Source: Mumia sp. zg.B17
Lineage (GTDB): Bacteria > Actinomycetota > Actinomycetes > Propionibacteriales > Nocardioidaceae
NCBI RefSeq assembly: GCF_019550915.1
Contig: NZ_JAHWCI010000001.1
Location: 1 to 64,000 of the forward strand
Length of the DNA: 64,000 nucleotides
Direction of reading: 5' to 3'
Shown here: positions 55,780-59,220 of the stretch, one piece after another
Layout: each line of letters starts with the position of its first letter
How positions within the stretch are numbered: the first letter of the stretch is position 1
The notes under the pieces: model-generated
Seen by the model: the letters and a program-made list of their open reading frames with translations, nothing else
Databases searched by the model: none
Told to the model about the DNA's origin: nothing
Translations under genes and position numbers: made by a program

Positions 55780-58158
55780 TCAGGGCTTGGAGTGGCCGTG
55801 GCCCTCGTCGTCGACGGGGATGTCGGACTCCTCGGCGATCTTGCGGTTCTCCTCCGGCGTGCCCGCCTCGGGCTCGTCGAGGTCCTCACCGGGGCCCTCG
55901 GGCCGCTCGAGGACGGCGGTCGCCGTCGCCGCCATGCCGGCGTCGGCGGCGGTCGCGTCGGGCCCGGGCTCGGTCGCGGGGTCGGCGGCCGCCTTGCGCT
56001 TGACACCGGCGAGGAGGAGCTGCGCCACGTCGAGCACCTCGACCTCTTCGCGAGCAGCGCCGTCGGCCTGCTTCGCGGTCAGGCCGTCGGCCAGCATCAC
56101 CCGGCAGAACGGACAGCCGACCGCGATCTGGTCGGCACCGGTGTCGATGGCCTCCTGGGTGCGGTTGAGGTTGATCCGCTCGCCGAGCGTCTCCTCCATC
56201 CACATCCGGGCGCCACCAGCACCGCAGCAGAACGAGCGCTCGGAGTTGCGCGGCATCTCCTTGAGCTCGGCGTTGGGGATCACGTCGAGCAGCTCGCGGG
56301 GCGCCTCGTACACCTTGTTGTGGCGGCCGAGGAAGCACGGGTCGTGGTAGGTGATCGTCTTGCCGGCGACCTTCTCGTCGGCCGGTGCGAGCGGTGTGAG
56401 CCGGCCCTCGCGCACGAGCCGGTTGAGCAGCTGCGTGTGGTGCACGACCTCGAGCTCGATGCCGAAGTCCTTGTACTCGTTCTTGAGCGTGTTGAAGCAG
56501 TGGGCGCAGGTCGAGACGACCTTCTTGACCTTCGTCTCCTTGAAGACCTCGACGTTCTGCGCCGCGAGCTGGGCGAACACGATCTCGTTGCCGGCGCGGC
56601 GGGCAGGATCACCCGAGCACGTCTCGCCGTCACCCAGGACGGCGAACGAGACGCCCGCGGTGTCGAGCAGCTCGGCGACCGCCTGCGTGGTCTTCTTGGC
56701 GCGGTCCTCGTACGCCCCGGCGCAGCCGACCCAGAACAGCCAGTCGACCTCGTCCAGGTCCTCGATGTCGACGCCGACCTGCTTCACCTCGAAGTCGAGG
56801 TCCTTCGCCCAGTCCATCCGGTTCTTGGGCGACATGTTCCAGGGGTTCCCCTTGCGCTCGAGGCCCTTGAAGATGTTGTTGAGCTCGGTGGGGAAGTTGG
56901 ACTCCACGAGCACCTGGTAGCGGCGCATGTCCATGATGTGGTCGACGTGCTCGATGTCGACCGGGCACTGCTGGACGCAGGCGCCGCAGTTGGTGCAGGA
57001 CCAGAGGACGTCGGGGTCGATGACGCCGTAGACCGACTCGTCGCCAATCAGCGGACGCTCCGCCTCCGTGGTGACCGCCTCGGAGAGACCGTCGCGACCG
57101 TCCTCGCCGGCGAGGACGTACGGCGCCTTGGCGTACGCGTGGTCGCGCAGACCCATCACGAGCAGCTTGGGCGAGAGCGGCTTGTCGGTGTTCCAGGCGG
57201 GGCACTGCGACTGGCAGCGGCCGCACTCGGTGCAGGTGGTGAAGTCGAGGATGCCCTTCCAGGAGAAGTCCTCGACCTTGCCGACGCCGAGCTTCTCGAA
57301 CGCGTCCTCGTCGAGGTCCTCCATCGTCTCGATCGTGACCGGCGTGTCGTCCACGTAGATCGGCTTCAGCCCACCGAGGGCGGGAGCGCCGGAGGCCTCG
57401 CGCTTGAACCAGATGTTGACCCAGGCGGTGAAGCGGTGCCAGGCGACACCCATGGTGATGTTGAGCGAGATCGTGATCAACCAGGTCATCGAGATGGCGA
57501 TCTTCACCATCGCGACGGCGTAGATGGTCGTCTCGAGCGCTCCGGCCGACATCCCGGAGAAGAGATCGCCGAGCCAGAAGGTGCCGGGGAAGTGGGCGAA
57601 CGTCGCCTGGGCGGGGTCGTCGTGCGAGAACAGCGCGTACTCGAGGCCGCGGAGCAGGAAGCCGCAGACGACGACCGACAGGATGACAGCCTCGACGAAG
57701 TAGGCCTGCCAGAACGTGGAGCCGAAGAAGCGGGACTTGCGGCCGAGCTTGTTGGGCTTGTTCCGCTGGCGGACGAAGATCAGGTACAGGATGCCGATCA
57801 GGGTCAGCCACGACAGGAGGTCGCTCACCCACTGGTAGACGACCCAGTGCCCGATGATCGGAAGCACCGCGTGGGCGTCGAAGATCTGGAAGTAGGCCGC
57901 GGCGACCATCGTGGACAGCAGGATGAATCCCGCGAACACGAACCAGTGCATGATGCCGATCCAGTGCCACTGGAGCATCCGCGTGTGGCCGAGGGTCTCG
58001 ACCAGCATGTTCTTCCAGCGCGTCCCCGGGTTGTCGGTCCGGTTGTGCGTCTGCCGGCCCATCCTCACCACGCGCACCATCGAGGCGACCGCCCTGGCGG
58101 CGAGCGCGACGGCGACGGCGGTGATGGCCAGCGAGACGACGATCGCGACGACCTGCAT
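55780..58158 (-). CDS. etfD: EtfD-like membrane iron-sulfur oxidoreductase
   Basis: A 792-residue protein that should take electrons from ETF during beta-oxidation and pass them to menaquinone. N-terminal five-helix membrane part (about 1-240, NarI/HdrE-like, His residues in MLQWHWIGIMHWFVF as heme ligand candidates). Two 4Fe-4S motifs CTECGRCQSQCP and CTNCGACVQQCP (about 300-420). Two CCG-type domains (CX-n-C with FCCGAGGARMW and the earlier GDGETCSGDPARR/STCAHCFNTL) as in HdrD/GlpC. The acidic tail (PEENRKIAEESD) is non-conserved. The architecture equals mycobacterial EtfD (Rv0338c). ATG start with AGGAG six bases upstream. The promoter region carries the motif shared with fadE5. Confidence 0.88.
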   Translation of the reverse strand: MQVVAIVVSLAITAVAVALAARAVASMVRVVRMGRQTHNRTDNPGTRWKNMLVETLGHTRMLQWHWIGIMHWFVFAGFILLSTMVAAAYFQIFDAHAVLPIIGHWVVYQWVSDLLSWLTLIGILYLIFVRQRNKPNKLGRKSRFFGSTFWQAYFVEAVILSVVVCGFLLRGLEYALFSHDDPAQATFAHFPGTFWLGDLFSGMSAGALETTIYAVAMVKIAISMTWLITISLNITMGVAWHRFTAWVNIWFKREASGAPALGGLKPIYVDDTPVTIETMEDLDEDAFEKLGVGKVEDFSWKGILDFTTCTECGRCQSQCPAWNTDKPLSPKLLVMGLRDHAYAKAPYVLAGEDGRDGLSEAVTTEAERPLIGDESVYGVIDPDVLWSCTNCGACVQQCPVDIEHVDHIMDMRRYQVLVESNFPTELNNIFKGLERKGNPWNMSPKNRMDWAKDLDFEVKQVGVDIEDLDEVDWLFWVGCAGAYEDRAKKTTQAVAELLDTAGVSFAVLGDGETCSGDPARRAGNEIVFAQLAAQNVEVFKETKVKKVVSTCAHCFNTLKNEYKDFGIELEVVHHTQLLNRLVREGRLTPLAPADEKVAGKTITYHDPCFLGRHNKVYEAPRELLDVIPNAELKEMPRNSERSFCCGAGGARMWMEETLGERINLNRTQEAIDTGADQIAVGCPFCRVMLADGLTAKQADGAAREEVEVLDVAQLLLAGVKRKAAADPATEPGPDATAADAGMAATATAVLERPEGPGEDLDEPEAGTPEENRKIAEESDIPVDDEGHGHSKP

Positions 58159-58237
58159 GCTCTGCTCCTGCCGGTAGTACTGACTAGCGCACCTTAGCCC
58201 CAGCGAAGGGCGTTCTCTGGGTAAGGTACGCCAAACA

Positions 58238-58252
58238 CTACCGGTGGGTAAC
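58238..58252. promoter_or_regulatory. Operator-like motif shared with the fadE5 region
   Basis: CTACCGGTGGGTAAC matches CTACTCGCGGGTAAC (45592-45606) at 12 of 15 bases, keeping the outer TAC...GTA half-sites. On the minus strand it overlaps a plausible -35 TTACCC (58246-58251), 17 bases from a TACCTT -10 (58223-58228) driving the EtfD-like gene. A rightward -10 TACGCT (58267-58272) for the riboswitch gene lies on its other side, so either transcript could be affected. Confidence 0.6.
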
Positions 58253-58290
58253 TTCGAGGCGTCTCGTACGCTGTGATCAGCCACCCGGCT

Positions 58291-58331
58291 CCGGACGAGA
58301 AGCGACGTACCCGGTCATGCGAAGACGTCGA
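58291..58331 (+). promoter_or_regulatory. Guanidine-III riboswitch (ykkC-III class)
   Basis: The class signature is present base for base in the conserved places: CCGGACGAG, then ACGTACCCGGTCA, then GAAGACGTCG. CGACGT (58303-58308) pairs with ACGTCG (58325-58330), and CCGG (58291-58294) pairs with CCGG (58311-58314), forming the class pseudoknot. It lies 23 bases before an SMR-family exporter, the usual gene for this switch. It binds free guanidinium. Confidence 0.9.
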
Positions 58332-58354
58332 CACCACGTGGTCAGGAGCCCGTC

Positions 58355-58669
58355 ATGGCATGGCTGGTCCTCGTCGTCTCCGGCGTCCTCGAAGCGGTCT
58401 GGGCGACCGCGCTCGGGCGATCGGCCGGTCTCACCCGACTCGTCCCGTCGGTCGTGTTCGGCGTGGCGGTGGTCCTCAGCATGGTCGGGCTGGCGTACGC
58501 CATGCGGAGCCTGCCGACCGGCACCGCGTACGCCGTGTGGGTCGGCATCGGCGCCTCGCTCACCGTCGCGTACGCGATGGCGACCGGTGTCGAGCCGGTC
58601 TCCGTGGTGCGCCTGCTGTTCCTCGCGATGATCATCGGCGGGGTGGTGGGGCTCAAGGCGGTGGGCTGA
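58355..58669 (+). CDS. gdx: SMR-family guanidinium exporter (Gdx/SugE)
   Basis: A 104-residue four-helix proton-coupled exporter of the small multidrug resistance family. The essential membrane Glu13 sits in SGVLEAVWATALG. GTAYAVWVGIGAS is the SugE/Gdx-type helix-three segment. The guanidine riboswitch upstream makes guanidinium export the most likely role; quaternary ammonium export is the alternative. AGGAG is 6 bases before the ATG and sits inside GGAGCC, which can pair with GGCTCC at the aptamer's 5' edge. Confidence 0.93.
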   Translation: MAWLVLVVSGVLEAVWATALGRSAGLTRLVPSVVFGVAVVLSMVGLAYAMRSLPTGTAYAVWVGIGASLTVAYAMATGVEPVSVVRLLFLAMIIGGVVGLKAVG

Positions 58670-58674
58670 GGCGG

Positions 58675-59220
58675 TCAGCCGCCGAGGACCCCCAGGTAGC
58701 CCAGCGCCTGCCGCAGCAGGGCCCCGCGACCGCCCTCCATCTCGGCCGCGACCGCGTCGGTCGACGCCTCGCCCGGGGTGAGCCACGTCAGCTCCAGCGC
58801 GTCCTGGCGCGGCTGGCACTCGCCCGAGACCGGCACCACGTACGCGAGCGCGACGGCGTGCTGGCGGGCGTCGAAGAACTGCGACGCCCCCGGGTAGGGG
58901 AAGTACTCGGTGACCGCGAACGGCACGGTGCTGACCGGCAACACCGGGAAGGCGGTCGGGCCCAGGTCCTTCTCGAGGTGGCGCATCAGAGCGTCGCGGA
59001 CGCGCTCGCCGTGCATGACGCGCCCGGAGACGAACGAGCGCGAGATCGCGCCGGTGTGCGCGGAGCCCCGCAGCAGCAGCCCGATCTCGGCGACGAGCCC
59101 GTCAGGATCCATGCGGACCGGGATCGCCTCGACGTAGAGGATCGGGACCCGGCCGCGGGTCTCGTCGAGCGCGTGATCGGAGAGCCAGCCGGGGTTGGGG
59201 TCGGGCGTGCGTACCGTCAT
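58675..59220 (-). CDS. NUDIX-fold protein (DUF4916 type)
   Basis: A 181-residue protein of the DUF4916 NUDIX-like group. NPGWLSDHALDETRGRVPIL opens it and LLLRGSAHTGAISRSFVSGR to RDALMRHLEKDLG replaces the classical Nudix box GX5EX7REUXEEXGU, which is degenerate here; hydrolase activity is therefore uncertain. PGASQFFDARQHAVALAYVV and ALELTWLTPGEA follow the family. A second ATG 18 bases upstream is possible. It converges on gdx and is divergent from the MFS exporter. Confidence 0.8.
   Translation of the reverse strand: MTVRTPDPNPGWLSDHALDETRGRVPILYVEAIPVRMDPDGLVAEIGLLLRGSAHTGAISRSFVSGRVMHGERVRDALMRHLEKDLGPTAFPVLPVSTVPFAVTEYFPYPGASQFFDARQHAVALAYVVPVSGECQPRQDALELTWLTPGEASTDAVAAEMEGGRGALLRQALGYLGVLGG

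Follow-up and report, generated by a model that had tools for sequence, protein, structure and literature searches.

A guanidine-III riboswitch ahead of a Gdx/SugE-like exporter gene in Mumia sp. zg.B17 and candidate pairings that may mask its start region

The window, that is, the whole 64,000-nucleotide stretch of Mumia sp. zg.B17 DNA that was analysed, carries a guanidine-III riboswitch aptamer directly ahead of an SMR exporter gene (matches to RF01763 and PF00893, respectively), an arrangement that an earlier, sequence-only reading of this DNA had described correctly. The start codon of the gene lies 20 nt past the end of the Rfam match. The features of the leader, including three candidate pairings designated helices A, B and C, are listed in Table 1.

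Table 1. Positions of the features of the leader and of the exporter gene in the window, with the basis of each assignment.
Feature	Position	Strand	Basis and remarks
Probable -10 box, TACGCT (TANNNT)	58267..58272	+	Box pattern among leaders of relatives
Guanidine-III riboswitch aptamer (RF01763)	58275..58334	+	38.9 bits, gathering score 36, full model 1-67
Hairpin P1, AGCC 58279-58282 / GGCU 58287-58290, loop ACCC	58279..58290	+	Sequence; hairpin search gives a 4-bp stem from 58279
Candidate helix A, GGCUCC 58287-58292 / GGAGCC 58345-58350	58287..58350	+	Predicted folding; formation would disrupt P1 and the pseudoknot
Pseudoknot strands CCGG 58291-58294 (5') and CCGG 58311-58314, core ACGAG 58295-58299	58291..58314	+	Rfam alignment
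Helix P2, CGACGU 58303-58308 / ACGUCG 58325-58330	58303..58330	+	Sequence and Rfam alignment
Candidate helix B, CCGGUCAUGC 58311-58320 / GCAUGGCUGG 58358-58367 (early codons)	58311..58367	+	Predicted folding; would disrupt the pseudoknot
Candidate helix C, GACG 58324-58327 (P2 3' side) / CGUC 58351-58354 (SD-AUG spacer)	58324..58354	+	Predicted folding
Shine-Dalgarno (SD) core, GGAG	58345..58348	+	Sequence
SMR exporter gene, 104 aa, Gdx/SugE-like	58355..58669	+	ORF, ATG 58355; PF00893, 66.5 bits

The exporter resembles the Gdx/SugE guanidinium exporters (PF00893) in its full-length SMR match and in five retained residues. Its closest solved chain was 6wk5_B (E 5.7e-23), which we take to be Gdx-Clo, with 8vxu_A also among the best solved relatives; in the alignment with 6wk5_B, E13, W16, S42, Y59 and W62, presumably the residues of the Gdx pocket, were identical. 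It differs from these exporters in its score with the top NCBIfam model, SugE NF008512, which was 95.4 bits and thus under the curated cut-off of 126; the gene is therefore called only Gdx/SugE-like, with guanidinium as a putative substrate. Named SMR proteins related to the exporter numbered 80 (L151-L230); an aptamer core was present in the fetched stretch of 71 and absent by the core pattern from 9, some of the stretches ending at contig edges.

A covariance-model search with the Rfam guanidine-III family, proposed with the sequence-only reading, gave a single match across the 3.86-Mb genome, at 38.9 bits against a gathering score of 36. The pseudoknot strands, P2 and the ACGAG core were all included in the alignment, and one outer P2 model pair was flagged as non-standard. 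Judged from its sequence, the element at 58275-58334 is an ordinary guanidine-sensing RNA switch of a known class, placed before a guanidine-type exporter gene. Its 5' edge had been put at 58287, which is too far in: this omits the 5' strand of P1 (AGCC, 58279-58282), and the Rfam match opens at 58275. A scan of 58150-58700 found no terminator-like site, as expected from the claim that the switch works without one. RF01763 matches were present in all six genomes searched from the genus, in 146 of 245 genomes of the family Nocardioidaceae and in 174 of 393 genomes of the class sample. In some relatives the two pseudoknot strands were, by eye, altered jointly (CCCG/CGGG, GCGG/CCGC, TCGG/CCGA). 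Four leaders of group f20 (L304, L313, L315 and L323) seemingly lack P1, and in these CCCG/CGGG replaces CCGG/CCGG on both sides of the pseudoknot (also by eye).

The structure from Thermobifida fusca and its class are described in PMC5696562, and the Mumia element is like them in its full-length model match, pseudoknot, ACGAG core, downstream SMR gene, SD shortly past the aptamer and proposed action as an ON switch. It departs from the class in its short P1 (4 bp), in a start codon 38 nt past the core against the usual 28-34 nt, and in a score of 38.9 bits, which is below nearly all of the family matches listed. Translational ON logic for guanidine-III is already published as a proposal. PMC5696562 proposes a translational ON switch acting via SD exposure and describes the action of guanidine-III switches as less well established; PMC12186494 repeats the proposal and adds protection from RNase E; and the discovery of the ykkC-III motif is described in PMC2864571. 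No text naming the masking helix of guanidine-III was found in the literature searched; such a text may be in print in Sherlock and Breaker 2017. The candidate helices with their coordinates render this masking step testable by probing.

Among 271 leaders, 117 have a box of the form TANNNT that begins 19-32 nt 5' of the pseudoknot, whereas a control stretch yielded such a box in 4 of 271; of 142 boxes counted, 98 are followed by a P1 that starts 7-9 nt past their end. A full sigma-70 consensus was not found in the scan of 58150-58700. From the spacing between box and P1 across leaders, the mRNA probably begins at P1, at about 58279-58280 in this leader, and the folding results for this leader rest on that inferred start. 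Placed at 58267-58272, the probable -10 box would put P1 at the extreme 5' terminus of the predicted mRNA, as is common in the class sample.

For the masking step, the sequence-only reading had pointed to helix A. The positions that it gave for GGCTCC and GGAGCC are right, the hexamers are exact complements, and bases 58291-58292 do fall within the pseudoknot, whose 5' strand is CCGG (58291-58294). In the folded aptamer all six bases of GGCTCC are occupied by P1 or the pseudoknot, and the aptamer fold and helix A therefore exclude each other, as had been claimed. When the 60-nt aptamer was shuffled 5000 times with dinucleotides preserved, 188 of the shuffles also held a run of at least six Watson-Crick pairs with the 13-nt SD stretch, so that the match by itself carries little weight. 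In predicted folding from 58279, the probability (P) of helix A was 0.97 for transcripts to +3, 0.80 to +15, 0.75 to +18 and at most 0.01 from +21. With the transcript start placed 40 or 60 nt 5' of the pseudoknot, P was 0.36-0.38 at +15 and 0.15-0.19 at +45 and +90.

With the start at 58279, helix B was predicted with P of 0.97-0.99 at +21 and beyond, and helix C, whose GACG and CGUC are separated by a 23-nt stretch, was predicted together with it at P of 0.98-0.99 once helix A was replaced. In the genus, L006 has a similar helix B (−15.3 kcal/mol) and the other four genomes have weaker ones (−4.4 to −10.3 kcal/mol). For the PK3+L3 segment of the window, its own coding start ranked first among the 136 compared. 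In the family, the PK3+L3 segments showed no preference for their own coding sequences (z 1.14, n = 136), and helix B as a conserved design was rejected on this result.

The cost of opening the region from −13 to +13 was calculated for the free leader and for a 'locked' state in which the aptamer strands were left out, using an energy model without pseudoknots or ligand. From 58279, the free and locked costs were 9.2 and 4.4 kcal/mol at +3, and 15.7 and 8.6 kcal/mol at +15; at +30, +45 and +90 (starts 58279 and 58275) they were 19.6-20.5 and 11.0-13.9 kcal/mol. Forbidding helix A brought the cost at +3 to 3.4 kcal/mol and left it unchanged at +30 and beyond (start 58279); with the start at 58275 the cost dropped at +15, +18 and +21 (from 18.6 to 14.6 kcal/mol at +21). 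When helix B was forbidden, the cost from +30 to +90 came to 12.2-13.2 kcal/mol (start 58279) or 14.9-16.9 kcal/mol (start 58275). Forbidding helices A and B together gave a free cost of 10.8-11.7 kcal/mol at +30, +45 and +90 for both starts.

Of 354 leaders, 318 had a free cost more than 1 kcal/mol above the locked cost and 9 had one more than 1 kcal/mol below it. Swapping aptamers within a group reduced the free-locked difference by 0.2 to 1.5 kcal/mol in each of the six groups; the energy change with swapped versus own aptamers was 6.50 versus 6.71 kcal/mol in the family (n = 127) and 3.43 versus 4.97 kcal/mol in the genus (n = 6). Much of the energy change is therefore generic to GC-rich aptamers and start regions, and the predicted drop in opening cost on removal of the aptamer strands would be mostly independent of which pairing masks the start region. 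The 91-nt leader was not unusually stable relative to shuffles (z 0.18). When whole-leader folding was scored by SD pairing alone, SD exposure for transcripts to +30 was higher in the free (0.71) than in the locked state (0.30), with a sign that varied with transcript length; this score was rejected as uninformative on account of that length dependence.

The reading that we favour, with a probability of roughly 0.6, is a guanidine-III riboswitch that would turn on translation of the Gdx-type SMR exporter, with an OFF state formed by helix A and subsequently by helices B and C. Without guanidinium, pairings in the leader would recruit aptamer strands and bury the start region. The first OFF pairing would be helix A, between the P1-3'/pseudoknot strand and the SD; after about 20 coding nucleotides have emerged, a long hairpin of helices B and C would form, in which the 3' pseudoknot strand pairs with codons 2-5 and the 3' strand of P2 with the SD-AUG spacer. 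Guanidinium, if bound here, would stabilise P1, P2 and the pseudoknot, so that these strands are withdrawn and the start region opens more easily. Early in this leader, helix A is a plausible OFF state, and probably just one among several pairings by which the gene is kept off; in the full mRNA, the coding-region hairpin is at least as likely as helix A to maintain that state. We regard it as unlikely that helix A alone is the switch, with GGCUCC masking the SD and guanidinium releasing it. Helix A dominates the prediction up to about +18 and persists in part with the more distant transcript starts, but its near-disappearance from +21 with the start at 58279, and the lack of any effect of forbidding it from +30, argue against a sole role. 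The sequence-only reading is supported in class, gene type, ON logic, lack of a terminator and mutual exclusion; a role of helix A as the only switching helix is not supported.

Several sets of relatives were compared. The family set started from 150 loci, of which 7 without the core pattern were left out (143, used for one SD-pairing fold) and 7 more with odd starts were dropped; the remaining 136 served for the helix B test and a further SD-pairing fold. The larger set comprised 334 loci, 302 cores, 280 SMR leaders and 271 distinct leaders (270 in the linker-length tests, L145 being dropped), and the set for the group-wise helix A tests comprised 419 loci, 411 cores, 383 SMR leaders and 358 distinct leaders without L145. 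The first sister-pair tree held 357 of 358 leaders, the helix C tests and opening costs were based on 354 of 358, and the final tree held 400 of 401. A held-out set of 56 new loci contained 54 cores, 52 of them in SMR leaders; 22 and 21 of these leaders had not been in the set before, and helix C could be scored in 17 of the 21. The p and z values of the cognate and sister-pair tests are uncorrected for about 175 comparisons.

Conservation of the GGCTCC/GGAGCC pairing, which had been proposed as a check of helix A, was found only in part. Among the six genomes of the genus, all six pairs are possible in three (G-U allowed), five in L006 and four in L004, and L002 loses the register; cognate and swapped duplex energies did not differ in the genus (z 0.28, n = 6). 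A cognate preference was likewise absent in the rest of the family (z 1.34, n = 127), in the mixed class set (z −1.02, n = 113), in f20, a group that also has long linkers (z 0.89, n = 37), and in a held-out genus (z −0.62, n = 22). A modest preference of the helix A segment for its own SD was seen in genus g105 (z −2.64, n = 30, 22/4000; linker to the start of at least 36 nt in 25 of 30) and in the rest of family f18 (z −3.15, n = 45, 6/4000; at least 36 nt in 34 of 45), in both of which the other segments and controls stayed within z 1.7. Sorted by linker length, leaders with at least 36 nt gave z −3.31 (n = 45, 3/5000) and compact ones z 0.59 (n = 223). These z values call for caution because unrelated segments stood out elsewhere too (core+P2_5 in the family, z −2.98; a reversed segment in the mixed set, z −2.04).

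Phylogenetically independent sister pairs from the first coding-sequence tree gave p 0.019 where both linkers were long (45 pairs), 0.0026 where any was long (59) and 0.92 for compact leaders (116); with the held-out leaders added, these values were 0.08 (57 pairs), 0.018 (71) and 0.91 (124). The reversed-segment control for long pairs was near significance in the first tree (p 0.06-0.09) and flat in the enlarged one. The long-linker results favour helix A as the switch in its own right, and the nulls in the genus, compact leaders, f20 and the held-out genus count against it. As a family-wide design, helix A was rejected for compact leaders (sister pairs p 0.91). Loss of the helix among relatives, which the earlier reading had said would speak against it, is partly seen, since the register is eroded in the genus and compact leaders have no preference. 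By eye, helix A covariation fits in L267, L249, L254 and L381.

A different pairing stands out among compact leaders. The start codon lies 28-34 nt past the end of the core in 232 of 280 leaders, a tight spacing that would be explained if helix C were the main device of the class, with the GACG of the P2 3' strand pairing with CGUC in the spacer, the SD held in a small loop, and P2 folding freeing the SD. The P2 3' strand plus linker indeed favoured its own SD-AUG spacer (z −5.07, n = 127, 0/4000; z −3.37, n = 109, 3/4000), with null reversed controls. The base after the aptamer GAC tracked the base at −4, G being matched by C in 112 of 172 cases and T by A in 14 of 39 (Fisher p 7e-8, kinship ignored). 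GTC stood just before the start in 191 of 352 leaders; a mere background habit was rejected as its source from its occurrence before 2 of 24 other window genes (3 of 25 including the exporter), a small control with rule-chosen start codons.

Against this, the spacer preference was null in the window's genus (g1, n = 6), f18, g105 and f20, and not significant in a held-out family (z −1.16, n = 17). In the enlarged tree, sister pairs gave p 0.013 for all leaders and 0.0495 for compact ones with the AUG included, and 0.054 and 0.22 with the spacer only; the modest compact values had weakened with more data (spacer only from 0.039 to 0.22; with AUG from 0.014 to 0.0495). Segments trimmed to either the P2 strand or the linker were not significant in sister pairs (p 0.22-0.29) and went in the opposite direction in two groups (f18, z 2.85; f20 linker, z 3.96), and of three sister pairs informative for a single covarying base pair, one was for and two were against. 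We therefore consider helix C a doubtful candidate for the main device of the class.

A quite improbable alternative, in our view, is that the aptamer acts mostly on mRNA life, its folded 5'-terminal form obstructing RNase E without any masking of the SD. P1 does lie at the predicted 5' end of the mRNA, and PMC12186494, with reference to Richards and Belasco 2021, ascribes such an obstacle to guanidine-III; the idea leaves the tight start-codon distance and the drop in opening cost unexplained. An RNase E obstacle and masking of the start region could also act together.

For the class as a whole, we put forward tentatively, as a rather unlikely generalisation of the favoured masking mechanism, that guanidine-III switches share a principle and not a helix, the start region being masked by whichever aptamer strand is in reach. 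In compact leaders this would be the P2 3' strand against the SD-AUG spacer, with the SD in the loop, which would fix the 28-34 nt distance. In some long-linker lineages, perhaps including the window's genus, the SD itself would be covered, by the P1-3'/pseudoknot strand, and in this leader the coding-region hairpin would take over afterwards.

Aptamers were also found before non-SMR genes, with 27-34 nt from core to start (L016, L017, L111, L146, L150, L231, L234-L237, L241, L409 and L417). The products are small membrane-like proteins (that of L016 had no Pfam match), proteins that carry NAEGAWAQQ close to their start, and proteins with HGSPSAKHNTDPD in common. In L297, L308, L310 and L390, GCUCC stands right after the P2 3' strand, opposite GGAGC at the SD, which by eye is apparently a local SD hairpin of a different design.
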